A program made the position numbers and the translations under genes. The notes under the pieces are model-generated. The model did no database searches, had not been told where the DNA came from, and saw only the letters and a program-made list of their open reading frames with translations. DNA of 64,000 bases, from contig JAKLKB010000022.1 of NCBI GenBank assembly GCA_023150835.1, forward strand, positions 3,388-67,387, read 5' to 3'. Origin of the DNA: Myxococcota bacterium. Lineage in GTDB: Bacteria; Myxococcota_C; UBA6777. This document shows positions 35-61,588 of the stretch, one piece after another; within the stretch, counting starts at the first letter, position 1; the number at the start of each line of letters is the position of its first letter.

Positions 35-180
35 CCCAAACCCCCCGTGTTCGCGCCCGCCAAGCGACAACCACCAGACTTTTTAACGCCCATATCCGTG
101 CGTAGCCAAAACCCCCGTGTTCGCGCCCGCCAAGCGACAGCGCTGTCTGTTTGAAAAACGATGTTGGTTTCGCCGATCCC
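35..180 (-). repeat. Family A element, copy 1 (minus orientation, head end duplicated)
   Basis: The motif CCCCCGTGTTCGCGCCCGCC followed by AAGCGACA occurs twice, at about 41-69 and 112-140. The second is followed by the internal part of family A (TTTGAAAAACGATGTTGG, then TTCGCCGATCCC). The half that would carry the GGGG/CCCC hairpin is replaced by the 18-bp microsatellite that follows. Read on the minus strand it matches the other family A copies. GACAGCGCTGTC inside it is a perfect palindrome at the family's inner hairpin position. Confidence 0.75.
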
Positions 181-330
181 ACACCAACAAAAAAACCCAC
201 ACCAACAAAAAAACCCACACCAACAAAAAAACCCACACCAACAAAAAAACCCACACCAACAAAAAACCCACACCAGCAAAAAAACCCACACCAGCAAAAA
301 AACCCACACCAACAAAAAAACCCAAACACA
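178..330. repeat. 18-bp tandem repeat (microsatellite), about 8 copies
   Basis: The unit CACACCAACAAAAAAACC is repeated head to tail about eight times; one copy is one A shorter and two have AGCA for AACA. It starts directly where family A copy 1 breaks off and ends a few bases before the stop of the minus-strand gene at 337. Translation gives Lys/Pro/Thr or Phe/Val/Gly repeats in every open frame with no ribosome binding site, so I read it as non-coding. Positions 1-337 hold only this and copy 1 of family A. Confidence 0.9.
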
Positions 331-336
331 GGAGAG

Positions 337-1203
337 TCATTTAGCCCAAGAGGGACGTTGACAAGGGAGGGCTTTTCCGCTCCAGAGGGCGAGGAAGTCT
401 TTGTGGGAGTAGCGGATTGCGCCGCGAGCGGGGTCCCAGACAAGGATGCGGTCGTGTTCTGTGCCAGCGAAGACAGCGGCGTGGTCTTCTTGTGGGCTGC
501 GGGGGGATAGGCGGATGAAGAGGATGAGGGGTGGTTTTTGCTGTTGGAGTTGAGAGAGCGTCCATGTAGCGCGTTGGCAGGAGATACCGAGGGTGGCGAG
601 TCCATAAACGATTTGAGAGTCGGAAGTTCCCAGAACTCGGGAGGTACGAAGGAGTTGAACCATCTCGCGTTCGGAGGTTTCGCGGCCCCAAGCGCGGAGG
701 ACGGAAGCGGCGCTGGCAGCGGCACAAGAGACGGGGGAAGTTTGGATGACGACGGGGCCTTGGATGATTGGATCACGCAGATCGACGAGGGCGGTTTCGG
801 TGCAGAGCCAATGGCCGGATTCGACGATCACAGCGAGCAAGACCCCAGCGATGGGGAGTTTCCAGCGTTCGGCGTGACCGCTATCAAAGGCGACTTGGAC
901 GGCAAGGGCGGAGAAGAAGACGTAGGCAAACAGGACGGCGCACCAGATCGAGGGTCCGAGAGAATGGCCGACCCACAAGGGCAAGGCCCACTCCATCTTG
1001 GGATACTTCGAGAGTCCGTAGCCGTAGAGCATCGGCAGGAACACCAAAGCAAGCATCACGTAAAGATAAGGCGCGTGATGCAACACCTCTTGCAAAGGCA
1101 AACTGCCACCGGCTTTTTTGCGCAAACGTCGGGCCTCACGGTATCCTGCCCAGATCGCAACAACGTACACAAGAAGATGTAGCCACAAAGGAATCGCGGT
1201 CAT
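337..1203 (-). CDS. Membrane protein with C39-like cysteine peptidase domain
   Basis: 288 residues. The first half is membranous, with hydrophobic stretches at about 5-20, 45-65, 80-108 and 116-134. The second half (about 145-280) resembles a peptidase C39-like domain: Gln154 and Cys160 in QTSPVSCAAASAASVL, His241 in EDHAAVFAG and Asp257 in VWDPA form a complete Gln/Cys/His/Asp set. C39 domains usually cut double-glycine leaders in peptide-exporting ABC transporters. No transporter, ATPase or leader peptide gene is adjacent, so the substrate is unknown; a membrane-bound processing or lysis-related protease is also possible. The ATG start overlaps the stop of the deaminase gene upstream (ATGA), implying translational coupling. 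An in-frame extension to about 1407 is possible but lies inside the deaminase gene and is not protein-like. Confidence 0.75.
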   Translation of the reverse strand: MTAIPLWLHLLVYVVAIWAGYREARRLRKKAGGSLPLQEVLHHAPYLYVMLALVFLPMLYGYGLSKYPKMEWALPLWVGHSLGPSIWCAVLFAYVFFSALAVQVAFDSGHAERWKLPIAGVLLAVIVESGHWLCTETALVDLRDPIIQGPVVIQTSPVSCAAASAASVLRAWGRETSEREMVQLLRTSRVLGTSDSQIVYGLATLGISCQRATWTLSQLQQQKPPLILFIRLSPRSPQEDHAAVFAGTEHDRILVWDPARGAIRYSHKDFLALWSGKALPCQRPSWAK

Positions 1204-1739
1204 GGCAGGGCCTCGTTGGGTTTGAAGTGAAAGAGGCGGGGATCTTGGGGGCCATCGACGGCCAAGATCCCGACGTGGTGTTGAGAAAGATACGCAAGTC
1301 CATTTTCGCCGATGTATCCGCCGCCGACGATGATGACTTTTTTGATCCCAGCGTGATGGATAAGTTTGGCGCACATCAGGCAGGGTTCCCCTGTGACAAA
1401 GAGCCAAGCACCTTGGGTGGGGACGCCCGAAGCAGCGCAGTTACAGATGACGTTCATCTCGGCGTGATGGCAACCGATCTCCATGCGCATCCCAGAAGGG
1501 ATCGCCATCGTGTCGCGCAAACATTCATCGCCGCCGCAGAGTTCACCCCCTCCACGCGGCCCGCCGTTGTAGCCGTCCATCAAGACGACGTTGCGTTCAG
1601 GGTCAAGCAACAAAGCCCCAAACTTGCGGCGCGGACAGTTCGAGGCTTTGGCAAGGGCGAGACATTGTTCGATGCGGATCTGTACATGCTTTTCTTTCAC
1701 GCAGTTTCCTTTCCGAATGCTCGGCGGTTGGGGATACAA
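1200..1739 (-). CDS. dCMP deaminase / ComE-type cytidine deaminase family protein
   Basis: 179 residues. It has the zinc site of the deoxycytidylate/cytidine deaminase superfamily: His92-Ala-Glu94 in CHHAEMNVICN and Cys120/Cys123 in GEPCLMCAK. Glu94 would be the proton shuttle. The size and the insert carrying GGDECLRD fit the dCMP deaminase/ComE branch, which makes dUMP from dCMP for thymidylate synthesis; other members act on riboflavin intermediates or tRNA, so the substrate is inferred. The last four bases overlap the start of the C39-like membrane protein, so the two are one transcription unit. The start at 1739 is the first ATG; a GTG 13 codons further in (VKEKHVQIRIEQ) is an alternative. 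Confidence 0.85.
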   Translation of the reverse strand: MYPQPPSIRKGNCVKEKHVQIRIEQCLALAKASNCPRRKFGALLLDPERNVVLMDGYNGGPRGGGELCGGDECLRDTMAIPSGMRMEIGCHHAEMNVICNCAASGVPTQGAWLFVTGEPCLMCAKLIHHAGIKKVIIVGGGYIGENGLAYLSQHHVGILAVDGPQDPRLFHFKPNEALP

Positions 1740-7660: not shown

Positions 7661-8893
7661 ATGAAGCAGATCTGTCGTCTTGAAAATCCTATTCAATACT
7701 ACGCGTGGGGATCACACGAATCCATCGCACGATTGCAAGGCCGAGCCATCCCTTCGAAGAGTCCCGAAGCAGAACTTTGGATGGGCGCGCACCCCAAAGC
7801 CCCCTCTTGGGTGGCGAAGGACTCCGAAAAACACTCTCTGCTTGCGTTGATGCAATATGAATCCACCGCGATCCTCGGAGCGCAAGTCGATCAGCGCTTT
7901 GCAGGACGACTACCCTTTTTGTTGAAAGTCCTTGCTGCATCAAAGCCTTTGTCGATCCAAGCCCACCCCAACCTCGAACAAGCCCGTGTGGGTTTTGCAC
8001 GAGAAAATGCCTTAGGCATCCCCTTTGATGCGTGGGATCGCAGTTATCGAGACGACAACCACAAACCCGAGCTGATCTGCGCCATCACGCCTTTCTGGGC
8101 GCTACGCGGCTTTCGCCCTTATCACGAGATCCTCGAATGGATCGAGATCTTGCGGTTGGAGGCGTTGTACCCCGAATCCAAGCAATTCGCAGAACAACCC
8201 AACGAAGCCGGACTACGCACCTTTTATTCTGCGCTATTGACGCTGCTTCCCGAACGCAAAGCACAGCTCCTCACCGAAGCACGGCGCGGCGCACAACGGT
8301 TGTGCGAGCATACCGACGCTCTAACCCAAGAATCCGCCCGCATCGGTCGTTGGATCTTACAACTTCACGACCATTATCCCGATGATATCGGGATCTTGTC
8401 ACCTGCGCTCCTACACACCATCTGCCTGCAACCCGGCCAAGCCATGTACCTCCCTGACGGCGAACTCCACGCCTACCTCGAAGGCACCGGCATCGAGATC
8501 ATGGCCAACTCCGATAATGTCTTGCGCGGCGGCCTCACCAACAAACACATCGATATCCCCGAACTTCTCCACGTCTTGCGCTTTGCCCCCACCCGCATCG
8601 AACTCCTCACTCCACAGCCAAGCACCGAAACCCCCGAAGCCTTTTACTCTACACCCACCGAAGAATTCTCCCTCTCTGTCCTTCACCTTCTCCCCTCCCT
8701 TCGCTATACCTCCCCTTCGCTTCGCAGCGCCGAGATCTGGCTTTGCCTCAATGGCTCCGCTGAGATCAAAACACACGCACAACCCGAACTCCAACTCGCC
8801 CAAGGCGACGCCATCCTCGTCCCCGCTGACGCTCCTCCCTACCAGATCACCGGACACGCCACCCTCTACAAAGCCACCACTCCCCTTCTCTAA
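7661..8893 (+). CDS. manA: Mannose-6-phosphate isomerase, class I
   Basis: 410 residues, usual for the type I enzyme. It interconverts fructose 6-phosphate and mannose 6-phosphate, feeding GDP-mannose and surface polysaccharide synthesis. Visible signatures: the opening NPIQYYAWGS, AELWMGAHPKAPS, FLLKVLAASKPLSIQAHP (zinc-binding Gln and His), DDNHKPELICAITPFWALRGF, and DGELHAYLEGTGIEIMANSD with the second zinc His and the catalytic region. The start is the ATG before KQICRLENPIQ; the ribosome binding site (AAAGAAAGA) is weak. The gene stands alone, with a duplicated segment upstream and repeat elements downstream. Confidence 0.95.
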   Translation: MKQICRLENPIQYYAWGSHESIARLQGRAIPSKSPEAELWMGAHPKAPSWVAKDSEKHSLLALMQYESTAILGAQVDQRFAGRLPFLLKVLAASKPLSIQAHPNLEQARVGFARENALGIPFDAWDRSYRDDNHKPELICAITPFWALRGFRPYHEILEWIEILRLEALYPESKQFAEQPNEAGLRTFYSALLTLLPERKAQLLTEARRGAQRLCEHTDALTQESARIGRWILQLHDHYPDDIGILSPALLHTICLQPGQAMYLPDGELHAYLEGTGIEIMANSDNVLRGGLTNKHIDIPELLHVLRFAPTRIELLTPQPSTETPEAFYSTPTEEFSLSVLHLLPSLRYTSPSLRSAEIWLCLNGSAEIKTHAQPELQLAQGDAILVPADAPPYQITGHATLYKATTPLL

Positions 8894-8926
8894 AAAATGA
8901 ATCTTCCCCCAGCAGGGTTGGACTTG

Positions 8927-9053
8927 TTTTGTGTGGGGTTTCACCCCACGCCCCGCCATAGAACTGCGTTCCCTTGACCCCCTATCGGCGAACAGATCAT
9001 CGCATCTCAAACCAACGACTGTGTCGCTTGAAATGCCTCGAACACGGGTTTTT
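8927..9053 (+). repeat. Family A element, copy 2
   Basis: Starts with TTTTGTGTGGGG and the hairpin TGGGGTTTCACCCCA. Continues through CCCTTGACCCCCTATCGGCG and CAAACCAACGACTGTGTCGC, and ends CGAACACGGGTTTTT. It lies 34 bp after the manA stop. Confidence 0.9.
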
Positions 9054-9085
9054 CGTCGACAAGCCTCACCCTCCTTCTCTAAAAA

Positions 9086-9201
9086 TAGGAGTTACGCAGT
9101 TCGATACGAAAAAGGCCCATGTTCGGGCGCAGGCGGTTCGCGAACCGCCCCTACAACGGGTTGATTCTTCACGCTTTCCCTCTTCCACTGCGTAACTCCT
9201 A
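9086..9201. mobile_element. Short MITE (family C) with 15-bp inverted repeats
   Basis: Perfect terminal inverted repeats TAGGAGTTACGCAGT (9086-9100) and ACTGCGTAACTCCTA (9187-9201) enclose 86 bp with an internal palindrome (GGCGGTTCGCGAACCGCC). It encodes nothing and is flanked on both sides by TAAAAA. An apparently uninterrupted version of the target, TTCTCTAAAAAATGAATCTT, occurs at 8886-8905, so TAAAAA looks like a 6-bp target duplication. No matching transposase is in the window. Confidence 0.8.
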
Positions 9202-9342
9202 TAAAAAATGAATCTTCGTTCACAACGGCGCTTGACAAAGCCGAACAAAAAATGAATGTTGATTCAACGAATGTAATTTGTTTGCCTAAGCGAGCGAAGA
9301 AGGCAAGCGTACGGGGAGAGTGCAAGCAAGGAGGAAAGAAGA

Positions 9343-12622: not shown

Positions 12623-12636
12623 ACTTGGGCTGTTTT

Positions 12637-12756
12637 GTGGGGCTTTTTGTGGGGCTTTTTGTGGGGCTTTTTGTGGGGCTTTTTGTGGGGCTTTTTGTGG
12701 GGCTTTTTGTGGGGCTTTTTGTGGGGCTTTGTGTGGGGCTTTTTGTGAGACTTTTT
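12637..12756. repeat. 12-bp tandem repeat (GTGGGGCTTTTT), 10 copies
   Basis: Ten head-to-tail units, seven identical and the last ones slightly changed (CTTTGT, GTGAGACTTTTT). It begins 15 bp after the stop of the AarF-family gene and runs without a break into family A copy 3, whose first bases (TTTTTGTGGGG) match the repeat. This indicates that the microsatellite grew from the end of that element. Confidence 0.95.
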
Positions 12757-12877
12757 GTGGGGCGCTGCCCCACGCCCCGCAAGGGACCAATGGCCCCTTG
12801 ACCCCGTGTCGGCGGAAGATCGTAGGCTTTTCAAACGAACGGCGGCTCCGCTTGAAAAGGCGCGAACACGGGGGTTT
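12757..12877 (+). repeat. Family A element, copy 3
   Basis: Begins GTGGGGCGCTGCCCCAC, a hairpin equivalent to TGGGGTTTCACCCCA in other copies but with a changed loop. Then CCCCTTGACCCCGTGTCGGC, the inner hairpin GGCGGCTCCGCTTG, and CGCGAACACGGGGGTTT. In this copy the inner stem is GCGG/CCGC where others have CGAC/GTCG, which looks like compensatory change. Confidence 0.92.
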
Positions 12878-13544
12878 GGGATGGAAAGGTGTGAAGAAGA
12901 AACGAAAAGAAAGAAGAGGGCAGCGAAGAGTTGAGACCCGATTCGAGGGTAGCGTAAAGTACCGAGTTTACGGCGGTGGGTGAGGTGAGTGCAACGTTGT
13001 GGGGGACCGTCTGGGGGTGGTGCGGTGGATCAGGGTGAGGTGTAGGTGCTTCTTGTATCGGATTATCGGGGGGGTTGGAGGGGGTGGTGACTGGGGCGAG
13101 TGGGACGGTGGATGAGATCAGGGGGGGACTGCACCTTTGCAACGGGCGGAGTATCGGGGGGTGTAGAGATGCGCGGCGAACACTCTCGGGCGCGGAGTTG
13201 TGCGCGGTGGGTGCTGCTGGCTCTCCTAAGTACCCGTCGCTTGGCCTTGTTTTCGCTTCGCTGCGAGGTCGTAGGTGAGGCGTCGGCGATGTGCAGCAAG
13301 GAGATGTTCTTGCGCAGCACGCTCATGTTCCTCCGCCATGTATGCACTCATTAGAAACCTGTCTCCTGCTTCTGCGTATCACACAGACATCAAAGGAGAA
13401 ACCCGTGAGGGAACAACCGACTGCCGAAGCAGTCACACGTTGTCAGGAAGCCTACCGAGGGGGGGGTCTCAACTTCTTCACTTTTCAAAGAACAGGCTTC
13501 AAGGCTAAGCACACCCTACTCGGTAACGCAAGCCTCACGATGCC
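12878..13544. other. Gene-poor spacer with only tentative small reading frames
   Basis: From 12878 to about 13220 the minus strand is Pro/Ser-rich in two frames without a clear start, possibly a decayed gene. A 41-codon minus-strand frame at 13226-13351 (MSAYMAEEHERAAQEHLLAA...) is preceded by TGAGTGCATAC-type sequence without a good ribosome binding site and may be the head of that decayed gene. A 47-codon plus-strand frame is listed separately. No family B or C element was seen. Confidence 0.4.
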
Positions 13545-34999: not shown

Positions 35000-35066
35000 T
35001 GTGACGCATCTCTTGTATATCTGCCGAGGTTGTGTAGCCTCTTGGTGGAAAACGACCCCGACACGT

Positions 35067-35193
35067 GGAACCCCGTGTTCGCGCCACTCCAAGCGAGAGA
35101 GTCGTTGTGTTGAAAAACCGTGATCTCTTCGCCGACATCGGGGTCAAGGGGACGGAGTTCCCTTGCGGGGCGTGGTACCTCGCCCCACAAAAC
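35067..35193 (-). repeat. Family A element, copy 4 (minus orientation)
   Basis: Contains CCCCGTGTTCGCGCC, AAGCGAGAGAGTCGT, TTGAAAAACCGTGATCTC, GGGGTCAAGGGGACGG and TTGCGGGGCGTGG. It lies between the divergent GH1 and agmatinase-family genes, the only copy in a purely 5' intergenic position. Confidence 0.92.
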
Positions 35194-35254
35194 TTATCCA
35201 ACAAAAACCCCAACAACCCCTATCCAAATTCAAAAACATGGAGTGATGGCGCGA

Positions 35255-37732: not shown

Positions 37733-37949
37733 AAATCGAGCGATTGGGTTTGTTTTTATGGGGTTTCACCCCACACCCCACAAGGGACCGAAGGCCCCTT
37801 GACCCCGTATTGGCGAAGAGATCACAGGTTTTTCAAACCAGCGGCTATGTCGCTCGAACGGGCGCAAACGCGGTTTTTTTGTTAAGATGTCACACCGCTC
37901 GCTCGATTTTCCTACAACAGCCGGCGCCTTGCTCGATAGTTTCGCCCAC
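37733..37949 (+). repeat. Family A copy 5 with flanking inverted and direct repeats
   Basis: Family A itself covers about 37753-37880 (hairpin TGGGGTTTCACCCCA, CCCCTTGACCCCGTATTGGC, AGCGGCTATGTCGCT, GCAAACGCGGTTTTTTT). It is bracketed by an 11-bp inverted repeat, AAATCGAGCGA at 37733-37743 and TCGCTCGATTT at 37899-37909. Downstream, GCGCCTTGCTCGATAGTTTC (37924 on) repeats a sequence of the pabB 3' end (37674-37699), 24 of 26 bases matching. Confidence 0.9.
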
Positions 37950-39523: not shown

Positions 39524-39559
39524 AACGCCTCGTTGTTTTGGCCAGGTCAAGGCTTCGAC

Positions 39560-39648
39560 AAAAACGCCATCTTCGCGCCAGTTCAAGCGACCGTGTCGTT
39601 TGTTTGAAGGACAGTGATCTTTTCGCTGAATACGGGGTCAAGGGGCGT
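39560..39648 (-). repeat. Family A element, copy 6 (minus orientation, truncated)
   Basis: Contains AAAAACGCCATCTTCGCGCC, TTCAAGCGACCGTGTCGTTT, GACAGTGATCTTTTCGCTG and ACGGGGTCAAGGGGCG, then stops where family B copy 3 begins. The terminal GGGG/CCCC hairpin is missing, probably removed by that insertion. Confidence 0.85.
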
Positions 39649-39720
39649 CATACGAGATCCGCCCATTGATACGAGATCCGCCCGTTGTGTGATCATAACG
39701 GTCGGATCTCGTATGAGCTC
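39648..39720. repeat. Family B element, copy 3 (internal deletion, duplicated end)
   Basis: TCATACGAGATCCGCCC at the left, a second TACGAGATCCGCCCGTTGTG shortly after, and GGTCGGATCTCGTATGA at the right. Both ends carry the same terminal repeat in inverted orientation with the centre of the element lost. It sits between the convergent pabC and rubredoxin genes. Confidence 0.8.
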
Positions 39721-39905: not shown

Positions 39906-39961
39906 AACATGACTCCACAAACCAACAAAACATACATAGAAAGAGAACCAACGCAGCGAAC

Positions 39962-40165
39962 AAAAACCCCCATGTTCGCGCCACACCAAGCGGTCGTGCT
40001 GTTGAGTTGAAACACTCTCGAACAGCCCGTCAAAACGGGGTCAAGGGGGCTGCGACCCCTTGTGGGGCGTGGGGTGAAACCCCAAAAAACAAGCCGAGAG
40101 TGGCGATGGACGACTTCACATCGCGGGTCAGGTAGGGGGTGAAACCCCAAAAAACAAACCGAGAG
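39962..40165 (-). repeat. Family A element, copy 7, with duplicated end
   Basis: Minus-orientation copy at 39962-40090 (AACCCCCATGTTCGCGCC, GCGGTCGTGCTGTTGAG, ACGGGGTCAAGGGGGC, GGGGTGAAACCCC). The end GGGGTGAAACCCCAAAAAAC plus AARCCGAGAG occurs at 40071-40100 and again at 40136-40165, offset 65 bp. It fills the space between the rubredoxin start and the methyltransferase stop. Confidence 0.9.
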
Positions 40166-45095: not shown

Positions 45096-45361
45096 TTCGC
45101 CTGCGTTCGTTTTGACAGTTTGCCTCTTTCTTTCCTCCTCTATACTTCTCGCTTTTCATCTGCCTTGCTGCCATCTCCTTCCACGACAAGCCTTGCCTTT
45201 TTGCTTGGTTGGTTTATTCTTCGTGTATGTTTTCGCGTTCATGCGATATCATCGAAGAAGAGCATCAGAAAAAGCAGAAATCAGTTAGGCGAATAAGTTC
45301 TTATTCGGATGGATTTCGTGCGAAGCGCTGGTTCGTTGGGCTTAAAAGGAAAGGTCATCTT
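45096..45361. other. Leader region of the RCC1 lipoprotein gene
   Basis: Pyrimidine-rich on the plus strand, with TATACT at 45141-45146 as a possible -10 box. TTTGCC 16 bases upstream is a weak -35 box; TTGACA at 45112 is 23 bases away, too far for a standard promoter. The frame of the lipoprotein is open from 45209 but has no better start than 45362. Confidence 0.35.
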
Positions 45362-49060: not shown

Positions 49061-49271
49061 GACAAGAGGTTTCGCTTTCGGACCAAAAACCTCGCGTCTG
49101 CGGTACTTCAGCGAATAGACACCACAGCGGCGATCTCACAAAAAGCTTCCCTCCCCCAAAACTTTTTTGTAGTATGCAGGCGACACCCACCTTTGAAGAG
49201 AGACTCGCGGCGTTTGCAGAGGTTTTTCGCACGCCGTTGTGTAGAGCAAACCAGAAAGAAAGGGCGCTGGA

Positions 49272-51110
49272 ATGAGCAAAATGCTCACCTATTCGTTGGG
49301 GATCGTGCTATGCATGATCCCCTTCTTGATGCATTGTGGTCCCCCGAACTGCCAAGTCGAAAAAGATCATCCTCTTTGCCTTTCCGAAGAGGCTGCGGGT
49401 GACGCTTCGGAAGCGATCACCGAGCAAACCAACCCGAACGAACGCCTTCCCACCGATGATGCAGAGCCATCTGTACACGACGGTACAGGGGAAACTGTCG
49501 CCGATGGGGCCGAAGAACCCGCGATCAACGAATCGAATCCTGATGTAACCACCGAACAACACAACGACGACTTGAACCCTGATTCGGATAACCCGAGCAT
49601 TACGTCGATTGTCGGAGACGGTTCCGCTCGTGCCGTTGTGTACAGTACGGGTACACAAAAGCCCGATGATGCAGTTGAATCACCCAATCGGTTTCGGAAC
49701 AACTGGCAGCTTCATGGCAAGCACCTCGACCGATTGACGGGGGCTTTGCTCGTTCTCAAAAAAGATGAATCCAAAACATTCGGCTCCAACGAGGGCCTAG
49801 TACTTGACGCTGGAGGTTCTTCGATGCTTCGCACTTTGACTCTTCCCAAAACACTCATCGCTGGTTTGTTTGTTCTCTACGGTCTGATCGGTAACAACAA
49901 AGTCTCTCTTGCTCAAGTTTATGTTCTTCAAGGCGAAAAAGGTGATTCGGGCGCTTCTGGACAAAAAGGCGACCAAGGCGACAAGGGCGACAAGGGCGAC
50001 AAGGGCGACAAGGGCGACAAGGGCGACAAGGGCGACCCGGGCGCCCAAGGCGCAAAGGGTGATCAAGGTATCCAAGGCATCCAAGGCGCAAAAGGCGATC
50101 AAGGCATCCAAGGCGTCCAAGGCGCAAAAGGCGACCCGGGCGTGGGATTCGATACGCAAACGGTGACTTACATCAACGGCTTGAAGACGTACATGAGCGT
50201 CAACACATCGAGTAAACTGGTCAAATTTACGGGGGCGAACGTTCAGATCGTCAATGGTTTGTCTTCGACCAGCACCAAGGACGGAACAGGTAACCTGATC
50301 GTGGGTCACAACGAAAATCGCGCAACACCGGCGGATCGTAGCGGCTCTCATAACGTGGTCGTAGGCGATCTGCATGTGTACAAAAGTTATGGCGGTTTTG
50401 TTATGGGAAAGAACAACGCCATCGAAGGCGCATACAGCAGCGTTTGTGGCGGTGGCAATAACTCCGCCACAGGCTACGCAAGCAGCATCAGCGGCGGAAC
50501 GAACAACATCGCGAGCGGCGAGGGAAGCAGTATTAGTGGAGGCAACGGAGGTCGCGCTGTTGCGAATACTTCGAGCATATCGGGTGGCATGAATAACAGC
50601 GCAACAGGCGAATTCAGCAGCGTATCGGGCGGTATGTTCAATGAGGCCAAAAGCTTCGCATCGTCGGTAACAGGCGGCGCAAGCAACATCGCGGGTGGTT
50701 TGGCCTCCACGGTTTGCGGTGGTGGCGTGCTGGATCTGGTGAACGGTGTCTATGCCAAGTCAACCTTCGGCAACAAGGCTTATGGCCGTTACAGCAGCGT
50801 GAGCGGTGGCAAGAATAACACTGCTGGGGATGCCTCGAATGGTACGCTTGGTGCGTCCAGCAGTATCTCTGGTGGTCTGGACAATATCGCAACGGGCGAA
50901 GCAAGCAGCGTCAGCGCCGGCTCTTCAAATACCGCGAGTGGGTATTTTAGTAGCGTTTCTGGGGGGGCCATCAACAGCGCAACAAGCCAAGGCGCGAACG
51001 TTTCTGGCGGGCTACAAAACACCGCCGTCTCCCTGTACAGCAGCATTCTGGGTGGGTCTGGGAAAACCACCGGATCAGGAACATGGACGTGTTCCTCAAC
51101 CTGCCCCTAA
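49272..51110 (+). CDS. Collagen-like repeat protein with YadA-like head repeats
   Basis: 612 residues as drawn. A lipobox-like signal peptide comes first (FLMHC, Cys22-23). Residues 30-180 are acidic and low in complexity. A second hydrophobic segment (about 190-206, [14 protein letters not shown]) resembles a signal peptide ending at SLA-QV. Collagen-type Gly-X-Y triplets run from about 221 to 292 ([20 protein letters not shown]). The C-terminal half repeats SSISGGxNNxATG-type units, about 15-17 residues each, as in the left-handed head of trimeric autotransporter adhesins; no membrane anchor domain follows. ATG at 49824, with GGAGG seven bases upstream, could start a separate 428-residue secreted protein. 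It probably forms a trimeric surface stalk. Confidence 0.85.
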
Positions 51111-51194
51111 ACCGCACGCAGTTGGTTGCGATCGGATTTGCGCGGTTGGATGGTTTGGTGGGGTGTTTTGGTTTCGCACCAAGGATGGTGACGG

Positions 51195-51554
51195 ATGATC
51201 GAAGTCTACAAAGAGTTTCGTTTTGAGGCGGCGCATCGGCTGCCCAATGTTCCCGAAGGCCACAAGTGCGGTCGTTTGCATGGGCATTCGTTTCGTGTCG
51301 AGGTCCATATCTGTGGCGAGCTCGATCCGCATCTCGGGTGGATCATGGATTTTGGCGAGTTGAAGGCAGCTTTTGCCCCGCTGTACGAGCGTTTGGATCA
51401 CCACTATCTCAACGAGATCGAAGGGCTCGAAAATCCGACCAGTGAGAACTTGGCGCGATGGATCTGGCAACAGTTGGCCCCGACGCTGCCGCAGTTATGC
51501 AGGGTGGTGGTCAAGGAGACCTGTACTTCGGGATGTCTCTACGAAGGCAGATAA
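51195..51554 (+). CDS. queD: 6-pyruvoyl-tetrahydropterin synthase family (QueD)
   Basis: 119 residues, the usual length. Zinc ligands His14 (EAAHRL), His29 and His31 (LHGHSFR); catalytic Cys25 (HKCGRLHGH); His69/His70 (LDHHYLNE) and Glu107 (VVKETCTSG). In most bacteria this enzyme is 6-carboxytetrahydropterin synthase of queuosine synthesis; the Cys-x-x-x-His-x-His pattern fits QueD. AAGGA lies nine bases before the ATG. It stands alone between two surface-protein genes. Confidence 0.93.
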
Positions 51555-51899
51555 CGCGACCGCAAGTCGTTTCGCCAGCGCCATTCGAGGAACGCGATCC
51601 CCCCGACAAAGATCGCTTCGCCCCACACCTGCAAAATCATCGACCCACAAAAGCTTGTGCATCTGTGTTTGCCTGCCTTTCTTTTTTGCCCGCCCGATCA
51701 AGGTTTCGCCGCTTGTGGAAGAGCGGCCTCACAAATCAGATATCGACATCAAAGAATTTTTGCATAAGATCCGAGAGTCTAGGCATCGTCTCTTTGGGGA
51801 GGCCATGCAAGGGTCTTCGTATATCAAGGGCAACGAAAAGAGGCAATGCTTTTCTTCACTCGAATGACAGTTGAACTGTTCGGATATTCGGGGGTTTTT
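51555..51899. other. Spacer between queD and the Stig1-repeat lipoproteins
   Basis: A 33-codon minus-strand frame ending at 51539 (MILQVWGEAIFVGGIAFLEW...) reads like the end of a membrane protein but overlaps the queD 3' end and has no good start; it may be a gene remnant. The rest shows no repeat family and no clear promoter. Confidence 0.35.
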
Positions 51900-54800
51900 A
51901 TGTTGATACGTTGGATCGCGATCGGTTGGGTCGGTTTGGTTTGTTTGTTTTCTTGTACCGAGCAAACCACCAAGTGCCAAAAAGACGGCGACTGCCCGAG
52001 TGGGATGCAGTGTCTTGCGGGGCGGTGCTTTTGCCCGAGTGGTTTGAGTGTGTGTGGCACGGCGTGTGTGGATCTGCGCGGTGCAGCGGAGCATTGCGGT
52101 GCTTGTGGACAAGCCTGCAAAGGTGGCAAGCGATGTCAGCAAGGAAACTGCGTTTGTGGGGCAGGGCAAGTCGACTGTGGTACGGCTTGTGTTGATATCC
52201 GCAGTGACGGGACGAATTGCGGTGGTTGTGGGCGGACTTGTGCGAGCGGAGAGTTTTGCACCAACGGGCGTTGTGCGGCGTCTTGTCCGAGCCAAACCCC
52301 CCAATCTTGCGGCGGAAGCTGTGTTGACCCCCAGAACGATCCGCTGCATTGCGGTCAATGCAACCTTGCGTGTAAGGCAGGGGAGTTGTGCCAAGCAGGC
52401 CAATGCGTCTGCTCGCAAGGACGGGCCTCTTGTGGCGATCAGTGTGCTGACCTACAGAGCAATCCTGCGCATTGTGGGTCTTGTGGGCGAGCTTGTCCGA
52501 GCGGGCAGCGCTGCGCGAGTGGACAATGCCTTGCGAACTGCCCCGAAAGTACGCCAACGCTGTGTTTTGGGGGATGTATCGATACCAAGACCGACGGCCA
52601 ACATTGCGGACAATGCGGTCAGCGCTGTCCTACACAACAGCAGTGTACAGATGGCCGTTGTGTGTGTCCGAACGGAACCATCCTTTGTGACGGGCGTTGC
52701 GTCGATCCAAGGATCGATCCATCGCATTGCGGCACCTGTGGGAACGTCTGCAACAACGGGGTTTTTTGTAGCAAGGGTCAATGCCTCCCTGAGTGTACCG
52801 TCGCGACGGAGACGATCTGCTTGGGTGGCTGCGCGGATACACAGACGGATCCTGCCCATTGTGGAAAGTGCGCAAACGCTTGTGGGATCGGCTTTGTGTG
52901 CAAGGGTGGGCAATGCCTCTGCCCAGACGGCCAGACCGATTGCAACGGGCAATGCGTGGACACCAAGATCCACGCGCTACATTGCGGAGCTTGCGCAAAA
53001 AGCTGTAAGGATGGGGAGGTTTGCGCAGCGGGTGCGTGTACCGCTTCGTGTCCGACCGAAACGCCGAAGATCTGTTATCAGGCTTGCGTCGATCCGCAGA
53101 CCAATACGCTGCATTGCGGCGATTGCAACCGCCGTTGCCAAGCAGGGCAGATCTGCGACAAGGGAAGCTGCCAATGCCCAAACGGGACGCGATTGTGTGA
53201 TGGCCTATGCACCGACATCAAGACAGACGGACTCCATTGTGGAGGCTGTCATCGCCGTTGTCCCGACCGTTTCGCCTGCCAAGCAGGGCTGTGTCAACTC
53301 CAATGCCCAAGCGGACAGATCGTCTGCAACGGCGGATGTGTGGATCCGAAAACAGATGACAGCCACTGCGGAAAGTGCGGTGTGACATGCCAAGCCCCGC
53401 AACGCTGCCAAGACGCCCGATGCTTGTGCCCTTCGGGGCAGACGGCCTGTGGAACAGGCTGCATCGATCTGCAAATCAACCCCCAACATTGCGGCGTTTG
53501 TGACAAAGCCTGTGGTGCGGGTGAGCAGTGTGTGGCAGGAAAATGCCAGACCAATTGTTCCACAGGGCAAAGCGTTTGTGCTGGAAAGTGCGTCGACGTC
53601 AAAACGGACGCAGCGCATTGTGGAGCGTGTGGAAACGCCTGTGGTACGGGGCAATTGTGCGTCAATGGGCAGTGCGGATGCAGTACAGGGCAGACTTTTT
53701 GTGCGGGGGCTTGTGTCTTTACGGAGTGGGATCCCGCCCATTGTGGATCGTGTGGAAATGCCTGTGGTGCGGGGCAGTTTTGTGTGCAGGGCAAGTGCCA
53801 AAGCTGCCCACCTCAAGCCCCACAATGCGGCGCAAGTTGTTGTCCCAACCAGCTTGCTTGTTGCAATAACGCTTGTACCGATACACAAAACAGTCTCCAA
53901 CATTGCGGAGCCTGCGGGCAAACCTGCACCGCGACGCAAGGCTGTTGCAGCGGAACGTGCATCACTCTTCAAAACAACAACCAACACTGCGGCGCTTGTG
54001 GAAATGCTTGTGCTTCTCCGCAGCGCTGTTGCGGGACGGCTTGTGCGAATACAGATCAAGATCCACAAAACTGCGGAAGCTGCGGGAACAAATGTCCTGC
54101 AGGAAGCTCTTGTTGCGGTGGCGTCTGCAAAAACTTACAAACGGATAACCAAAACTGCGGAGCGTGTGGGACGTTTTGTGGCCGAGCTCAAGTCTGTTGT
54201 GGTGGCACTTGTCGGAACTACCTGACGGATCCCCAACACTGCGGAAGCTGCGGGCGTGCGTGCGCGGCTGGGCAGGCTTGTTGTAACGGGCAGTGTGTGA
54301 GCACACAAACCGACACGCAACATTGCGGAGGCTGCGGGCTCGCCTGTAGTACCGCACAGCGGTGCTGTAGTGGAAAATGCGCGGGACTACAAAATGATCC
54401 CCAACATTGCGGAGGATGCGGAATTGCTTGTACGACAGGGCAGTCGTGTTGTGGTACGGCGTGTGCGAACACGCAAACCAGCACGCAACATTGCGGAAGA
54501 TGCGGGACAAGCTGCCTTGCGGGGCAATCTTGTTGTAGCGGAAGCTGCGCAGATACCCAAAGCAATCCGCAAAACTGCGGAAGCTGCGGGTTGAATTGCA
54601 ATGCAGGGCAGGTCTGCCGCAGCGGAGTCTGCTCCGCCTGTGCAGCATCTAGCGAGTGTCCAAGCAACCAGTTCTGCCGCAATGGTCTATGTACCCCCTG
54701 CACAACGGCCTGCGACAACGCCTATTCATTCTCCAGCACAGGGACCGCTTCTCCTCGGGAGCTGTTTGTGGATGGCAGTGGCAATCTGTTGTTTGGTGGT

Positions 54801-55991
54801 TTTTATACAGGCAGCGTGACTTTTGGCGCGAATGTGCTGACCTCGCTAGGCCAAGAAGACGCTTTTTCGGTCAAGATGAGCCAGACAGGGGCGACGTTGT
54901 GGGCCAAAAGCGCGGGTGGAACGGCCAACGATCAAACAGATGGAGATGGCATCGACGGTTCGGGCAACCTCTATAGCATCGGTTTGTTGGGACGACACAG
55001 CACGCCGATGACCTTTCCGACCAATCCACCGACCACATTGACACCACGCGGTCCTTACGACGCGTACGTGATGAAGCAAAACAGTGCGGACGGAACAGCG
55101 GCATGGGCCGTCCAACTGGGCGGCAATAGCTATGATTGGTCCGGCAAGATCGCGACAACCGCAGCAGGAGATAGCTTTGTCACGGGCTGGATCGTCGGCC
55201 CCAATCAGCAGATCTGCGCGCATACCGTGACCGACTCGTACCACGAGATCTTTGTGGCGCGAATTGAGCCGACGGCGGGCCGTTGTATGTGGGCCAAGAC
55301 GGTGGGAGCACCCGGCGTGAGTGATTATCCTGCGGGCTTGGCGGTGAGTGGAACGAATGTGTATGTGACGGGCCGTTTCCAAGGTACGGCGAGCTTTGGG
55401 GCGACGCAGTTGACCTCGCTAGGTGGCTTTGATGGCGTGGTCTTTAGCATGACGGATCAAGGCGCTTTTGGGTGGGCGCGTGGTTTCCACGGCACGCAAG
55501 ATATCCTTGTGGGTGGCGTTGTGGTCGATGGGACGAACCTTTATGTGTACGGGACTTTTTCGGGGACCGCACAATTCGGCAGCTACTCCCTGACCGCAAC
55601 GGGCGGAGCCAACGCGTTTGTGGTGCGGATGACGAACACAGGCACGGTGTCTTGGGCAAAAAATCTCGGAACATCCGGGATCTTGCAGATGATCCGCACG
55701 GCATCTGGAAAGATCTACATGACAGGGAGCTTTTCAGGCACGATCCGCCTCGACAACATCACGCTCACCTCTGTCGGCGGCAACGATGTGCTGTTTGCAG
55801 AGATCGATAGTACGGGGGCTTTCCGACGTGCAGAGCGGGCTGGTGGCCCAAACAATGACGCGGGGCGCGGGATCGCCGTCAATAGCGCTGGACGGATCTT
55901 TATCGTCGGAAGCTACGATCGGCAAGGTTCTTTTGGCCCTGCGAACCTCACCGCCTCTGGCAACGCCATCTTCTTGTGGGCTTTCCAGTGA
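51900..55991 (+). CDS. Giant lipoprotein: 23 Stig1-type Cys repeats plus beta-propeller
   Basis: 1,363 residues. Lipobox (CLFSC, Cys19). From 25 to about 935 there are 23 units of about 35-45 residues built on CxxxCVDxxxDxxHCGxCGxxC, the Stig1-like pattern, making roughly 20 percent of the segment cysteine. The C-terminal 400 residues are a propeller-like domain of the SBBP type (repeats such as NLLFGGFYTGSVTFG, NVYVTGRFQGTASFG, KIYMTGSFSGTIRL, each followed by a Trp-Ala-Lys strand). It must be exported and disulphide-bonded. Function unknown; a cell-surface or sheath protein is likely. GGGGG five bases before the ATG is the only ribosome binding site. The next gene encodes a shorter homologue and follows after 35 bp. 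Confidence 0.92.
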   Translation: MLIRWIAIGWVGLVCLFSCTEQTTKCQKDGDCPSGMQCLAGRCFCPSGLSVCGTACVDLRGAAEHCGACGQACKGGKRCQQGNCVCGAGQVDCGTACVDIRSDGTNCGGCGRTCASGEFCTNGRCAASCPSQTPQSCGGSCVDPQNDPLHCGQCNLACKAGELCQAGQCVCSQGRASCGDQCADLQSNPAHCGSCGRACPSGQRCASGQCLANCPESTPTLCFGGCIDTKTDGQHCGQCGQRCPTQQQCTDGRCVCPNGTILCDGRCVDPRIDPSHCGTCGNVCNNGVFCSKGQCLPECTVATETICLGGCADTQTDPAHCGKCANACGIGFVCKGGQCLCPDGQTDCNGQCVDTKIHALHCGACAKSCKDGEVCAAGACTASCPTETPKICYQACVDPQTNTLHCGDCNRRCQAGQICDKGSCQCPNGTRLCDGLCTDIKTDGLHCGGCHRRCPDRFACQAGLCQLQCPSGQIVCNGGCVDPKTDDSHCGKCGVTCQAPQRCQDARCLCPSGQTACGTGCIDLQINPQHCGVCDKACGAGEQCVAGKCQTNCSTGQSVCAGKCVDVKTDAAHCGACGNACGTGQLCVNGQCGCSTGQTFCAGACVFTEWDPAHCGSCGNACGAGQFCVQGKCQSCPPQAPQCGASCCPNQLACCNNACTDTQNSLQHCGACGQTCTATQGCCSGTCITLQNNNQHCGACGNACASPQRCCGTACANTDQDPQNCGSCGNKCPAGSSCCGGVCKNLQTDNQNCGACGTFCGRAQVCCGGTCRNYLTDPQHCGSCGRACAAGQACCNGQCVSTQTDTQHCGGCGLACSTAQRCCSGKCAGLQNDPQHCGGCGIACTTGQSCCGTACANTQTSTQHCGRCGTSCLAGQSCCSGSCADTQSNPQNCGSCGLNCNAGQVCRSGVCSACAASSECPSNQFCRNGLCTPCTTACDNAYSFSSTGTASPRELFVDGSGNLLFGGFYTGSVTFGANVLTSLGQEDAFSVKMSQTGATLWAKSAGGTANDQTDGDGIDGSGNLYSIGLLGRHSTPMTFPTNPPTTLTPRGPYDAYVMKQNSADGTAAWAVQLGGNSYDWSGKIATTAAGDSFVTGWIVGPNQQICAHTVTDSYHEIFVARIEPTAGRCMWAKTVGAPGVSDYPAGLAVSGTNVYVTGRFQGTASFGATQLTSLGGFDGVVFSMTDQGAFGWARGFHGTQDILVGGVVVDGTNLYVYGTFSGTAQFGSYSLTATGGANAFVVRMTNTGTVSWAKNLGTSGILQMIRTASGKIYMTGSFSGTIRLDNITLTSVGGNDVLFAEIDSTGAFRRAERAGGPNNDAGRGIAVNSAGRIFIVGSYDRQGSFGPANLTASGNAIFLWAFQ

Positions 55992-56026
55992 TCTCTACGA
56001 CGCGCAAAGAAAGGAATCTGTGGATC

Positions 56027-58153
56027 ATGATCCGTCGGAATATGCCTGCGTCTCTTTTTCTTCGTGGTGTCTGGGCCTCGCATCTTCGGCTATTTTTGGC
56101 TTGGCTTGGGATGGCCGCAATCCCGCTTGCTTGTGGAGGGGTTGTGTTTGCTCCTTGCGCAGACGACAAAGCCTGTGCCCAAGGCCAACGCTGTCTCAAC
56201 GGAACGTGCCTTTGTCCCGAGGGCAACGCTCTTTGTAGTGATGCTTGCCAGAATCTACTCCAAAACAACCAACACTGCGGCGTTTGTAACAACGCCTGTC
56301 CAAGCGGAAAAAGCTGCGTCCAAGGGGGCTGTATGTGTCCCGCAGGCTCGGTGGATTGCAACGGGGCCTGTGCCAACTTGAACGCGGACGTCAACCATTG
56401 CGGGCGTTGCGGGCAGATCTGCTCTGGCGGTGAAAAGTGCGCAAGTGGCCGTTGTGTGACGGATTGTCCAAGCACGACATCTACCGATTGCGGCGGAGCT
56501 TGCATCGATCTTCAAAGCAGCGCCAAGCATTGCGGAGCTTGCAACAAAGCCTGTGCGGACGGGCAGATCTGCGTCAACGGCGTGTGTCGGTGTCCTCCCG
56601 GGGATCTGTCTTGTGGTTCTGCTTGTGCCGATGCAACGGTCTCGAACCAACATTGCGGGGTCTGCGACAATGCTTGTCCGAATGGTCAGCGTTGTGCAAG
56701 CGGGCAATGCGATACAAGCTGCCCTGAAAGTACCCCCTCTCTGTGCCTTGGTGCGTGCGTGGACACGCGCTTCAACGATCTGCATTGTGGCCGTTGTGCG
56801 GAGCGTTGCGAAGAAGGGCGGCGCTGTGTCGATGGAGTGTGTCGCTGCCCCGATGGGATGCGCGAGTGTGCGGGCCGTTGCGTGGATCTGAATACAGATC
56901 GCGAACATTGCGGAGAATGTGGGCAGATCTGCGCCCAAGGTTTGCTTTGTGCTGAAGGCAACTGCGTTGTAAGCTGTCCCGAAGCGACCCCCAACGCTTG
57001 TTTTGGCGGCTGTTTTGCGACGCAGACCAACCCCAATCATTGCGGTGGGTGCGGAACGCGCTGTTTGGATGGACAGGCTTGTAGCGGCGGAAGCTGCGGG
57101 TGTTCTGCGCCGCTTTCTCTATGCAACGATCAATGTGTCGATACGCAAACCAACGTACTTCATTGCGGAAAATGCGGCACACGTTGTCCTGATGGAAAGC
57201 GTTGTGCTGCCGGTCAGTGCGTCACCTCTTGCCCGACGGAAACGCCAAAGATCTGTTATGGCGGATGTATCGATATCCAGAGCCATCCGCTGCATTGCGG
57301 AGGCTGCGGAAAACGCTGTCCTGCGGGACTCACCTGCAAGAGCGGGCGTTGTGATTGCCCAAGCGAGCGAACTCTTTGCAATGGACGCTGCGTCGATACC
57401 CAAACCAGCCGCCTTCATTGCGGCGCATGCGGTCGCCTCTGCCCAACGGGGTACACCTGCCAAAAGGGCGGATGCGTCATCCTTTGCTCTACTGCTTTCC
57501 CCAACCTGTGCGGAAAGCAGTGTGTCAACCTTCAAAGCGATCGCCGCCATTGCGGGACTTGTGACAAGGCTTGTGCTGACGACAAACGTTGCGAACAAGG
57601 AAGCTGCATCTGCCCCCTTGCACAAACTGAATGCAGCGGAAAATGCGTCGACACCCAGACCGATCTCCAACATTGCGGAGCTTGCGGCAAAAAATGCCCA
57701 AGCGGTGAGCGTTGCGTGGCGGGTGTTTGTCGGACAGATTGCCCTATAGGACAAACCCAATGCAGCGACCGTTGCGCAGATACCCAAACGGACGCCCAGC
57801 ACTGTGGTCAATGTGCAAACGCTTGCGGCCCGACCTTGCGCTGTAGCGGAGGCCAATGTGTTTGTGCAGATCCAAGCTTTGTCGAATGTAGCGGCGTGTG
57901 CGTCAATACCAAACTGGACCCCCAACATTGCGGTCAATGCAGCAAAAAATGCCCCACAGGACAGGCCTGCGACAACGGAACGTGCCAGCTTTGTCCCCAA
58001 GGCAGTCTCCAGTGCGGCACGACCTGTTGTCCCGGGAACTTCCTTTGCTGTGGCAATGCTTGCGTCGACCCGAAGATCAATCCCCAACATTGCGGTCAAT
58101 GCAGCAAGGTTTGTTCTGCGGGACGCCCCTGTAGCAACGGTGTTTGTCAATGA
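56027..58153 (+). CDS. Stig1-repeat lipoprotein, 15 units, no propeller
   Basis: 708 residues. Signal peptide with lipobox (AIPLAC, about Cys36). From 45 to the end there are 15 units of the HCGxC type (NNQHCGVCNNAC, NPQHCGQCSKVC), and the chain ends directly after the last unit. It is a paralogue of the protein before it and is probably co-transcribed. A long N-terminus before the hydrophobic core makes the start uncertain; ATG at 56027 has AAAGGAA twelve bases upstream. Confidence 0.9.
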   Translation: MIRRNMPASLFLRGVWASHLRLFLAWLGMAAIPLACGGVVFAPCADDKACAQGQRCLNGTCLCPEGNALCSDACQNLLQNNQHCGVCNNACPSGKSCVQGGCMCPAGSVDCNGACANLNADVNHCGRCGQICSGGEKCASGRCVTDCPSTTSTDCGGACIDLQSSAKHCGACNKACADGQICVNGVCRCPPGDLSCGSACADATVSNQHCGVCDNACPNGQRCASGQCDTSCPESTPSLCLGACVDTRFNDLHCGRCAERCEEGRRCVDGVCRCPDGMRECAGRCVDLNTDREHCGECGQICAQGLLCAEGNCVVSCPEATPNACFGGCFATQTNPNHCGGCGTRCLDGQACSGGSCGCSAPLSLCNDQCVDTQTNVLHCGKCGTRCPDGKRCAAGQCVTSCPTETPKICYGGCIDIQSHPLHCGGCGKRCPAGLTCKSGRCDCPSERTLCNGRCVDTQTSRLHCGACGRLCPTGYTCQKGGCVILCSTAFPNLCGKQCVNLQSDRRHCGTCDKACADDKRCEQGSCICPLAQTECSGKCVDTQTDLQHCGACGKKCPSGERCVAGVCRTDCPIGQTQCSDRCADTQTDAQHCGQCANACGPTLRCSGGQCVCADPSFVECSGVCVNTKLDPQHCGQCSKKCPTGQACDNGTCQLCPQGSLQCGTTCCPGNFLCCGNACVDPKINPQHCGQCSKVCSAGRPCSNGVCQ

Positions 58154-58189: not shown

Positions 58190-58297
58190 GTCATACGATA
58201 TCCGAGTGATGTGTATATACGTAAACGCCCTATTCTTGGGCAGCCACGGGGGGCTGCCCCTACATTTTTAGGATCACGCGCCCTGCGGATTTCGCAT
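58190..58297 (+). repeat. Family B MITE-like element, copy 5 (full length)
   Basis: Left end TCATACGATATCCGAGTG, then GTGTATATACGTAAACGCCC, the hairpin, GGATCACGCGCCC and the right end TGCGGATTTCGCAT, an imperfect inverted copy of the left end. It lies between convergent genes and is followed at once by family A copy 8. Confidence 0.85.
58238..58269 (+). terminator. Intrinsic terminator carried by family B copy 5
   Basis: Stem GGGCAGCC / GGCTGCCC, loop of six bases, then CTACA and five T. It is 85 bases after the stop of the Stig1-repeat lipoprotein gene. Confidence 0.65.
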
Positions 58298-58412
58298 CAC
58301 CCCACTCCCCACTTCCAAGGGCGCGGCTCCCTTGCCCCCGTGTTGGCGGACTGAGCGGCTACTTTTCAAACCAACGACTCTGCCGCTTGCAGCAGCACGA
58401 ACACGTCTTTGT
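58295..58412 (+). repeat. Family A element, copy 8 (diverged)
   Basis: CATCACCCCACTCCCC, CTTGCCCCCGTGTTGGCGGA, CTTTTCAAACCAACGACTC, GCCGCTTGCAGCAGCACGAA and CACGTC. The first arm of the terminal hairpin is lost, probably at the junction with family B copy 5. It is between two convergent genes. Confidence 0.8.
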
Positions 58413-58467
58413 TGGTTGCGTGAGTCCTGTGGGATAGGAATCTTGGGGGGAGCATACCGCGTGGATG

Positions 58468-59899: not shown

Positions 59900-61264
59900 A
59901 TGGGCAAGATCTTCGTGATCGGTGCAGGACGCTCCGCTTCTACTTTGATTCGTTATCTTCTCGAAAACGCCGAGGCTCAATCTTGGGAGATCCGCGTCGG
60001 TGATATCAACCTCGAACTCGCCAAACAAAAGATCGCCGGTCATCCGCGTGGACAAGCCGTCTTGTTTGACTCGCTCGACCGCGCCACCTACGGCGACCAC
60101 ATCACATGGTCCGATCTGGTGATCTCGATGCTCCCGGCTTCGATGCACGTCCCGATCGCACGCGAGTGCATCGATCACGGAAAACACCTTCTGACCGCTT
60201 CGTACATCTCCGATGAGATGCAAGAACTCCACGCCGAGGCACAAAAAGCCGGCGTACTCTTGCTCAACGAGATGGGACTCGACCCCGGCATCGATCACAT
60301 GTCTGCGATGCGTATGCTCGATAAACTCCGCGAACAAGGCGTTCCCATCGTTCGTTTCGAGTCCTTCGCAGGTGGACTCCTTGCCCCCCAAAGCGAAGCA
60401 AACAACCCGTGGCGCTACAAATTCACATGGAACCCCCGCAACGTCGTCCTCGCAGGGTCGGGTTCTGCCGTCAAGTTCGTCCAAGAAGACCGCTATAAAT
60501 ACATCCCTTACCAGCGGCTGTTTCGTCGCACAGAGATCATCGAGATCGAAGGATACGGCAAGTTTGAAGGGTACGCCAACCGCGACTCGCTCAAGTACAT
60601 CGATGTGTATCGTCTGCGTGGTATCCCCACCATCTATCGCGGAACACTCCGACGTCCCGGGTTTTGCAAGGCATGGGATGTCTTTGTGCAGCTTGGCGCA
60701 ACCGATGATTCTTATCTGATGGAAGGCAGCGAAGACATGACCTGCCGCGAATTCATCGACTCCTTCTTGCTTTACGACACCCAAGACAGCACACGCCTTC
60801 GCCTGATGCACTACCTCCGACTTGACCATGATTCTCCTGAAATGGAAAAGCTCGACTGGCTCGGTATCTTCGACGACACACCCATCGGCTACGGAAAGCC
60901 CGGGACGCCCGCGCAACTTCTTCAACATATCCTTGAGAAAAAATGGAACCTCGAACCTGACGACAAAGATATGATCGTCATGGTCCACAAGATCCACTTT
61001 CTCGATTCCGACGCCAAACGCCACCAACTCTTTTCTTCTACCGCCATCCTCGGCGAAGATCGCACCTATACCGCCATGGCGCACACCGTCGGCCTCCCCC
61101 TCGGCATCGCCGCTCGTTTGATCCTCAACCGCACCATCCAGCTAACGGGCGTCCAACGCCCCACCCTCCCCGCGATCTATCACCCCGTCCTCCAAGAACT
61201 CGAACGCTACGGGATCACCTTCCACGAACGCGAAACTGCCGTCCAATTCGAATCCATGTACTAA
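59900..61264 (+). CDS. Saccharopine dehydrogenase family protein
   Basis: 454 residues, the usual length of the LYS9-like type. Rossmann nucleotide motif at the start (FVIGAGRSASTLIRYLL), then NEMGLDPGIDHMSAMRM, ESFAGGLLAPQSEANNPW and KFTWNPRNVVLAG, all typical of saccharopine reductase. It would interconvert saccharopine and 2-aminoadipate semialdehyde plus glutamate, in lysine metabolism; bacterial members can act in carboxyspermidine-type reactions instead. No other lysine gene is nearby. AAAAGG lies about ten bases before the ATG. The stop is followed directly by a family B element. Confidence 0.9.
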   Translation: MGKIFVIGAGRSASTLIRYLLENAEAQSWEIRVGDINLELAKQKIAGHPRGQAVLFDSLDRATYGDHITWSDLVISMLPASMHVPIARECIDHGKHLLTASYISDEMQELHAEAQKAGVLLLNEMGLDPGIDHMSAMRMLDKLREQGVPIVRFESFAGGLLAPQSEANNPWRYKFTWNPRNVVLAGSGSAVKFVQEDRYKYIPYQRLFRRTEIIEIEGYGKFEGYANRDSLKYIDVYRLRGIPTIYRGTLRRPGFCKAWDVFVQLGATDDSYLMEGSEDMTCREFIDSFLLYDTQDSTRLRLMHYLRLDHDSPEMEKLDWLGIFDDTPIGYGKPGTPAQLLQHILEKKWNLEPDDKDMIVMVHKIHFLDSDAKRHQLFSSTAILGEDRTYTAMAHTVGLPLGIAARLILNRTIQLTGVQRPTLPAIYHPVLQELERYGITFHERETAVQFESMY

Positions 61265-61384
61265 TACGAGAGCCGCCCGTTGCGTGATCGTAAAGAAGTC
61301 GGGGCAGACAGGTGTGGCTGCCCAACAATCGGGCATCTGCGTACTCTCGTTTGCTGTGTACATCACTCGGATATCGTCTCATCG
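61263..61384 (-). repeat. Family B MITE-like element, copy 6 (full length)
   Basis: AATACGAGAGCCGCCCGTTG, GATCGTAAAGAAGTCGGGGC, AGACAGGTGTGGCTGCCC, GTACATCACTCGGATATCGT. The two ends are imperfect inverted repeats of the TCATACGAKATCCG type, in the opposite orientation to copy 5. It touches the stop of the saccharopine dehydrogenase gene. Confidence 0.88.
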
Positions 61385-61404
61385 TTCTGACTTGTTGGAA
61401 CGTG

Positions 61405-61588
61405 TTTTTTGGGACGCTGCCCCAAACCCCGCAAGGGGTCGCAACACACCACAAACCGCTGCCCTCGCTTCGTTTTAACTCTGCTCCAAAACCCGCCATA
61501 GGTCGCAACCCCTTGACTCCATGTTGGCGCAACAAGCAGACGTATCTCACCCAAACCACTCCGCCGCTTGGAGTGGCGCGAACACGCG
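61405..61588 (+). repeat. Family A element, copy 9 (first arm duplicated)
   Basis: TTTTTTGGGACGCTGCCCCA and CCCCGCAAGGGGTCGCAAC, a spacer, then a second start (CCAAAACCCGCCATAGGTCG) that continues with CCCCTTGACTCCATGTTGGC, CCGCCGCTTGGAGTGGCGCG and AACACGCGATC. It lies between two convergent genes, directly after family B copy 6. Confidence 0.82.

Follow-up and report, generated by a model that had tools for sequence, protein, structure and literature searches.

The question raised by this locus is which process places the same structured element again and again between the genes of a bacterial chromosome. The locus is a stretch of 64,000 nucleotides, hereafter the window (contig JAKLKB010000022.1, positions 3,388 to 67,387, assembly GCA_023150835.1), from a Myxococcota bacterium of the lineage UBA6777. 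A sequence-only reading of the window had proposed nine copies of an element of about 125 bp, here called family A, and had considered a non-autonomous mobile element, an mRNA-end stabiliser or a terminator-like RNA. On the evidence assembled here, family A is probably a non-autonomous transposable element, a miniature inverted-repeat transposable element (MITE) of ~170 bp, that has been dispersed by transposition at shared ends and the cores of which have subsequently been homogenised by recombination between copies.

The case for mobility begins at the borders. Intact family A copies possess terminal inverted repeats (TIRs; TAGGACTTACGCAGTTGG) ~170 bp apart, flanked by direct repeats of 5-6 bp such as TTTGAT, CCAGAT, TGAAAA and TGAGA. 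Compared with shuffled partners such target duplications are enriched (12 5-mers observed, 1.3 expected) among test sites comprising seven of a second element, family C, and about 15 others, mostly of family A. A complete copy in locus L010 faces an empty orthologous site in KLAP109, a metagenome-assembled genome (MAG) of a sister species. The window copy at 37753 is missing from its KLAP109 ortholog, where small local repeats make insertion and deletion indistinguishable. At a detection threshold reached by ~1% of random stretches, at least one end is recognisable in 56 of 127 copies and both ends in 16, and the unit, variable in length, is too short for a transposase of its own. Inverted ends and target duplications, one orthologous site that is empty, and insertions found in one sister species but not in the other thus support the mobile element among the earlier proposals, and family A can be regarded as a new family that behaves as a MITE and displays the defining features examined, namely the ends, the target duplication with empty site and the lack of its own transposase.

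Family A is abundant and at the same time narrowly distributed. The 7.56-Mb draft genome contains the motif CGCGAACACGGGG 98 times and the reversed control pattern not once, and an nhmmer search of 1.1 Mb of fetched sequence recovered 187 copies, 152 of them full length; corrected for how the sampled regions were chosen, the genome is estimated to harbour ~750 copies. Among ~85,000 species genomes the core pattern identified one other carrier, KLAP109 (labelled Myxococcota), besides a single chance-like match in a Verrucomicrobia MAG. KLAP109 is of the same genus (genome G001), and its orthologous DNA is mostly 88-95% identical. Core sites with at most two mismatches number ~350 in each of the two genomes (365 in the source genome, 341 in KLAP109) and zero in each of three further genomes from this family, with two of 55 more distant genomes showing one chance-level match each. 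The end motif follows the same distribution, with 180 occurrences in the source genome (two when reversed), 141 in KLAP109 and none in the three other genomes of the family. Family A is a two-species repeat, restricted to one Myxococcota genus. No Rfam family reached the gathering threshold anywhere in the window, permissive searches giving chance-level weak matches only, plasmid and phage records held no match to family A, and a literature search on the end and core sequences retrieved nothing relevant.

The core outlives the ends, as many core columns are conserved at near 1.5-2 bits. How the cores stay alike can be addressed with 20 orthologous copies from the two species, in which the flanks are 94% identical and the cores 69-100% (mean 87%), with 75% for random pairs of copies. 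Several orthologous cores are mosaic, one part being identical and the other swapped, as in L023/L124 and the window copy at 35067. In eight seemingly unexchanged ortholog pairs the mean identity is 95.9% for the core and 95.2% for the flank, values which are indicative only, as the pairs were chosen by core identity. Mosaic or replaced cores within conserved flanks, together with about equal divergence of core and flank in the seemingly unexchanged pairs, point to sequence exchange among the copies as a simpler cause of core likeness than strong purifying selection, and suggest gene conversion as the process.

In plus orientation the element leads from the left end TAGGACTTACGCAGTTGGATGG via TTTTG, hairpin 1 (TGGGG-loop-CCCCA), CGCCCC and hairpin 2 (CAAGGGAGC-GCTCCCTTG) to the stem P1 (CCCCGTGTT ... 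AACACGGGG), which encloses the stem P2 (GCG[A/G] ... [T/C]CGC), and then to a T run and the right end CAACTGCGTAAGTCCTA. The GC-rich core spans 125 bp, and its two hairpins extend to GTGGGG-loop-CCCCAC and CAAGGG-loop-CCCTTG. In alignment A2, 87.4% of cells are paired under this structure. The covariation score amounts to 0.125 compared to 0.076 in shuffles, none of 500 shuffles reaching the observed value, and the top covarying pairs 35-39, 37-51, 59-65 and 87-121 recur separately in the genome's own copies and in those of KLAP109. The combination of absent covariation and few copies, on which the proposal was to be abandoned, is clearly not what was found. The hairpins, the long pairing of CCCCGTGTT with AACACGGGG and the paired stem changes described from the sequence are all present; the local inner hairpin CGAC/GTCG, on the other hand, is weaker, with 73% of cells paired versus 95% for P2, and was given up in favour of the P2 stem, which covaries at alignment columns 84-87 with 121-124. 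The outer arms covary too, mainly owing to copies with intact ends. In the explanation preferred here, the core folds and its pairs were maintained by compensatory change at some stage.

One covarying pair goes beyond the stems. Column 37, a loop position of hairpin 1, varies in concert with column 51, which directly precedes hairpin 2; the 174 copies counted in the two species, all with strict GGGG-N5-CCCC loops, comprise C-G 87, T-A 74, T-G 10 and others 3. Column 46, located between the two, varies independently of either (0.01-0.02 bits of mutual information compared to 0.73), and the block 35/38/39, although interleaved with the pair, is equally independent of it. Simple neighbour linkage therefore cannot explain the pair, and constraint on the structure or some special mode of mutation is the likely cause. 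A GAGGTACC variant (15 copies) with A at column 37 and G at column 51 violates the pairing rule. Tests of the strand conflict, as 117 of 154 copies fold better when read on the minus strand and the T-G wobbles of the pair favour the plus strand; assignment of the strand via wobble and A-C counts was dropped, since the pairs contradict each other.

Taken as a sequence of events, a transposase encoded elsewhere, or now lost, would have recognised the shared ends and moved the unit into intergenic DNA, leaving a duplication of 5-6 bp, upon which the ends would decay and the cores, overwriting one another by recombination between copies, probably by gene conversion, would stay alike genome-wide. 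Of these steps, the ends, the duplications, an empty site and orthologous cores replaced wholly or in blocks are directly visible. Several observations weigh against this course. An autonomous element with the family's ends (TAGGACTTACGCAGTT) was not found in ~1.3 Mb of the genome's own sequence and 0.36 Mb of KLAP109; 71 of the 127 copies display no recognisable end, and the core might thus have spread without ends; a site occupied twice by independent insertion could pass for complete core replacement, though not for the partial, mosaic kind; and the loop pair 37-51 suggests constraint of a sort not required in a neutral MITE. The search for a parent transposon considered inverted TIR pairs 0.4-4.5 kb apart (L042, L072, L154, L155, L168, L170, L171 and others). 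The pairs that were examined for gene content turned out to be separate MITEs around host genes, such as a thiC-like gene (L171) and a gene for a cysteine-rich protein (L170), both named by eye from the translation, or a family A copy enlarged by insertion of a further repeat, B (L155). Five DDE_Tnp_1 loci were likewise rejected, as they do not have the family's ends on both sides.

The loop pair can be accommodated by a reading that we entertain with reserve, in which selection maintains the core as a structured nucleic acid whose hairpin-1 loop forms a tertiary pair with the base preceding hairpin 2. The fold would be required for the core to spread or for copies to exchange sequence, such that the element would spread by overwriting its relatives in addition to inserting. 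That the core is instead a functional structured RNA, a stabiliser in the 3'-untranslated region or a small or regulatory RNA, which spread on a MITE and is now kept by host selection, appears unlikely. Covariation in two species, a loop pair interleaved with an independent block beyond simple linkage, and the better conservation of cores than of ends would all agree with such a role, as does the strongly intergenic location: by a simple hexamer-based gene finder applied to ~1 Mb, only eight of 132 copies lie inside genes compared to 71% of random positions. However, core and flank identity is nearly equal in the ortholog pairs without visible rewriting, the two strand tests disagree, and neither orientation nor position relative to genes is fixed. 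Intergenic copies are found between tandem, divergent and convergent genes in the proportions 55/25/23, with 59/24/20 expected for random intergenic positions (p = 0.63). That eight of the nine window copies lie at 3' ends of genes, as was first pointed out, holds for the window and does not amount to a preference, because intergenic insertion generally gives such placement.

The same context bears on the possibility of an intrinsic terminator family, in which the P1 helix on the plus strand would be followed by the conserved T run. The T run does follow AACACGGGG (columns 147-151, 0.7-1.6 bits), and in tandem gaps 35 of 55 copies lie closer to the upstream stop codon (p = 0.058). Orientation with respect to the upstream gene is nevertheless unbiased (33 to 22, p = 0.18), thus lacking the co-orientation characteristic of intrinsic terminators, 25 copies lie between divergent genes, and a terminator scan missed the copies between 35 and 41 kb, because their helix closes over ~70 nt. 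We consider this explanation improbable; the suggestion of an mRNA-end stabiliser or terminator is unsupported as a general rule. Least probable is a REP/REPIN-type repeat moved as single-stranded DNA by a RAYT (TnpA-REP) transposase. High copy number, palindromic character, intergenic location and use as a target by another element are shared with such repeats, but single-strand REP transposition is not known to produce target duplications, and family A combines long TIRs and 5-6 bp duplications with units of 125-170 bp rather than tagged palindromes of 20-40 bp.

Returning to the window, the covariance model R1, built from 30 sequences of which 26 originate from elsewhere in the genome and four are window copies, matches all nine sites (E 3e-34 to 7e-7; Table 1) and bears out the nine copies proposed; three additional matches of 8-13 bits are marginal. 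Seven of the nine are complete or almost so, and three of the sites required correction: site 35-180 consists of two tandem right halves, site 39560-39648 is a 3' half without hairpins 1 and 2, and the copy at 61405-61588, among the seven, carries an internal insertion. The arms of copy 5, AAATCGAGCGA/TCGCTCGATTT, are perfectly complementary, yet differ from the consensus end sequence.

Table 1. Family A cores and the neighbouring family C element in the window
Feature	Position	Strand	Evidence
Truncated core, right half only (P1 3' side), first of tandem pair	35..86	-	exact CGCGAACACGGGG at 43-55, minus strand
Truncated core, right half, second of tandem pair	103..195	-	R1 30.7 bits, E 7e-7
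Core copy 2, complete	8926..9059	+	R1 104.2 bits
Family C, unrelated 116-bp MITE with family A-type ends (TAGGAGTTACGCAGTT...CACTGCGTAACTCCTA), beside copy 2	9086..9201	+	TAAAAA duplicated at 9080-9085 and 9202-9207
Core copy 3, complete	12750..12883	+	R1 132.8 bits
Core copy 4, complete; both hairpins exchanged in KLAP109 ortholog	35061..35195	-	R1 116.6 bits; ortholog alignment
Core copy 5, complete, directly after trpE-like gene; KLAP109 ortholog without copy	37751..37885	+	R1 127.6 bits
Core copy 6, left part lost (hairpins 1 and 2); best-matching stretch 39558-39648	39555..39693	-	R1 53.9 bits
Core copy 7, complete	39958..40092	-	R1 123.1 bits
Core copy 8, left hairpin diverged	58278..58418	+	R1 63.7 bits
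Core copy 9, internal insertion	61402..61600	+	R1 79.5 bits

Direct and tandem repeats are found next to several copies. A direct repeat of ~22 bp (CTTCTCTAAAAAATGAATCTTC) is located on both sides of copy 2 (8880-8908 and 9070-9085 + 9202-9222), its right copy being split by family C. Directly before copy 3, a 12-bp tandem repeat (TGGGGCTTTTTG)n occupies 12626-12751, and short tandem repeats with units of 12-18 bp recurrently abut the core on its left side, both within the window (12602-12751 and 172-330) and elsewhere, in L012, L036, L111 and L139. The tandem unit at the copy at 12757 is similar to the TTTTTGTGGGGC border itself, which suggests local expansion. Apart from the repeats, the region 45209-58153 contains a series of large genes in which cysteine-rich repeats of the CATTGCGG type are numerous; a GDK repeat of collagen-like character is located at about 49.9-50.2 kb.

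Another copy of family C, inserted next to family A in L071, is flanked by duplicated TCTACA and absent from KLAP109. Since a viral contig of another, unrelated source contains an element of 72 bp (L190, 6508-6580) that shares the 17-bp ends and is flanked by duplicated AACAAC, this type of end is not confined to the genus.

Family A itself serves as a target. A repeat B of ~130-270 bp (131-266 bp measured) with the ends TA[G/C]GCG...GCG[C/G]TA sits in hairpin 1 (L014 1146, L024 1144, L057 1417, L079 3827 and others), and in nine of 11 cases the entire 15-bp hairpin is identical on both sides. The ortholog of L024 in KLAP109 (L135) has no B and a single hairpin. Duplicated hairpin and empty ortholog identify B as a site-specific element that targets and duplicates the hairpin of family A. 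A group II intron, considered for the sequence ending ...GGCGCG|TATGGGG, was dismissed, as it represents a short element with duplicated hairpins. A parallel is known from insertion sequence (IS) elements with REP palindromes as their targets (PMC1525189), which likewise use a repeat hairpin as insertion site and from which B differs by its length, too short for a transposase, and by duplication of the complete hairpin.

Comparable repeats are known from other bacteria. ERIC (enterobacterial repetitive intergenic consensus) sequences measure ~125-130 bp and duplicate TA at their target. Up to 711 ERIC copies have been counted in Photorhabdus (PMC10969869). Family A resembles this intergenic MITE in length, location, structure and copy numbers of tens to hundreds, but no shared sequence family was detected, the distribution is limited to one Myxococcota genus, the duplications comprise 5-6 bp and not TA, and the core is homogenised by exchange. 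Equally, the Correia elements and RUP/BOX/SPRITE of Neisseria and pneumococcus are small non-autonomous intergenic repeats, and pneumococcal elements insert into one another (PMC10969869), which the insertion of B into A resembles; ends and interior of family A are different, and the sampled sequence yielded no parent transposase. Closer by descent of the host, the genome G003 of a sister genus of the family gave seven weak matches (best E 1e-4), covering the two-hairpin half only, in the same order GTGGG-loop-CCCAC, ACCCG, GGGG-loop-CCCC, ACCCC. The P1/P2 half is unmatched and the end motif was not found in the G003 genome. This GC-rich G003 repeat (L174-L180) resembles the hairpin half of family A and contains one additional small stem, CAATGCGTGAGCATTG.

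Three features deserve to be followed further, namely exchange among the copies, the pair 37-51 and the nested insertion specific to a hairpin. A repeat of ~750 copies that has exchanged blocks in two close species with the flanks in place allows ectopic conversion and compensatory base-pair change to be studied together, and the insertion of B with duplication of the whole hairpin provides a clean case of one small element targeting another.

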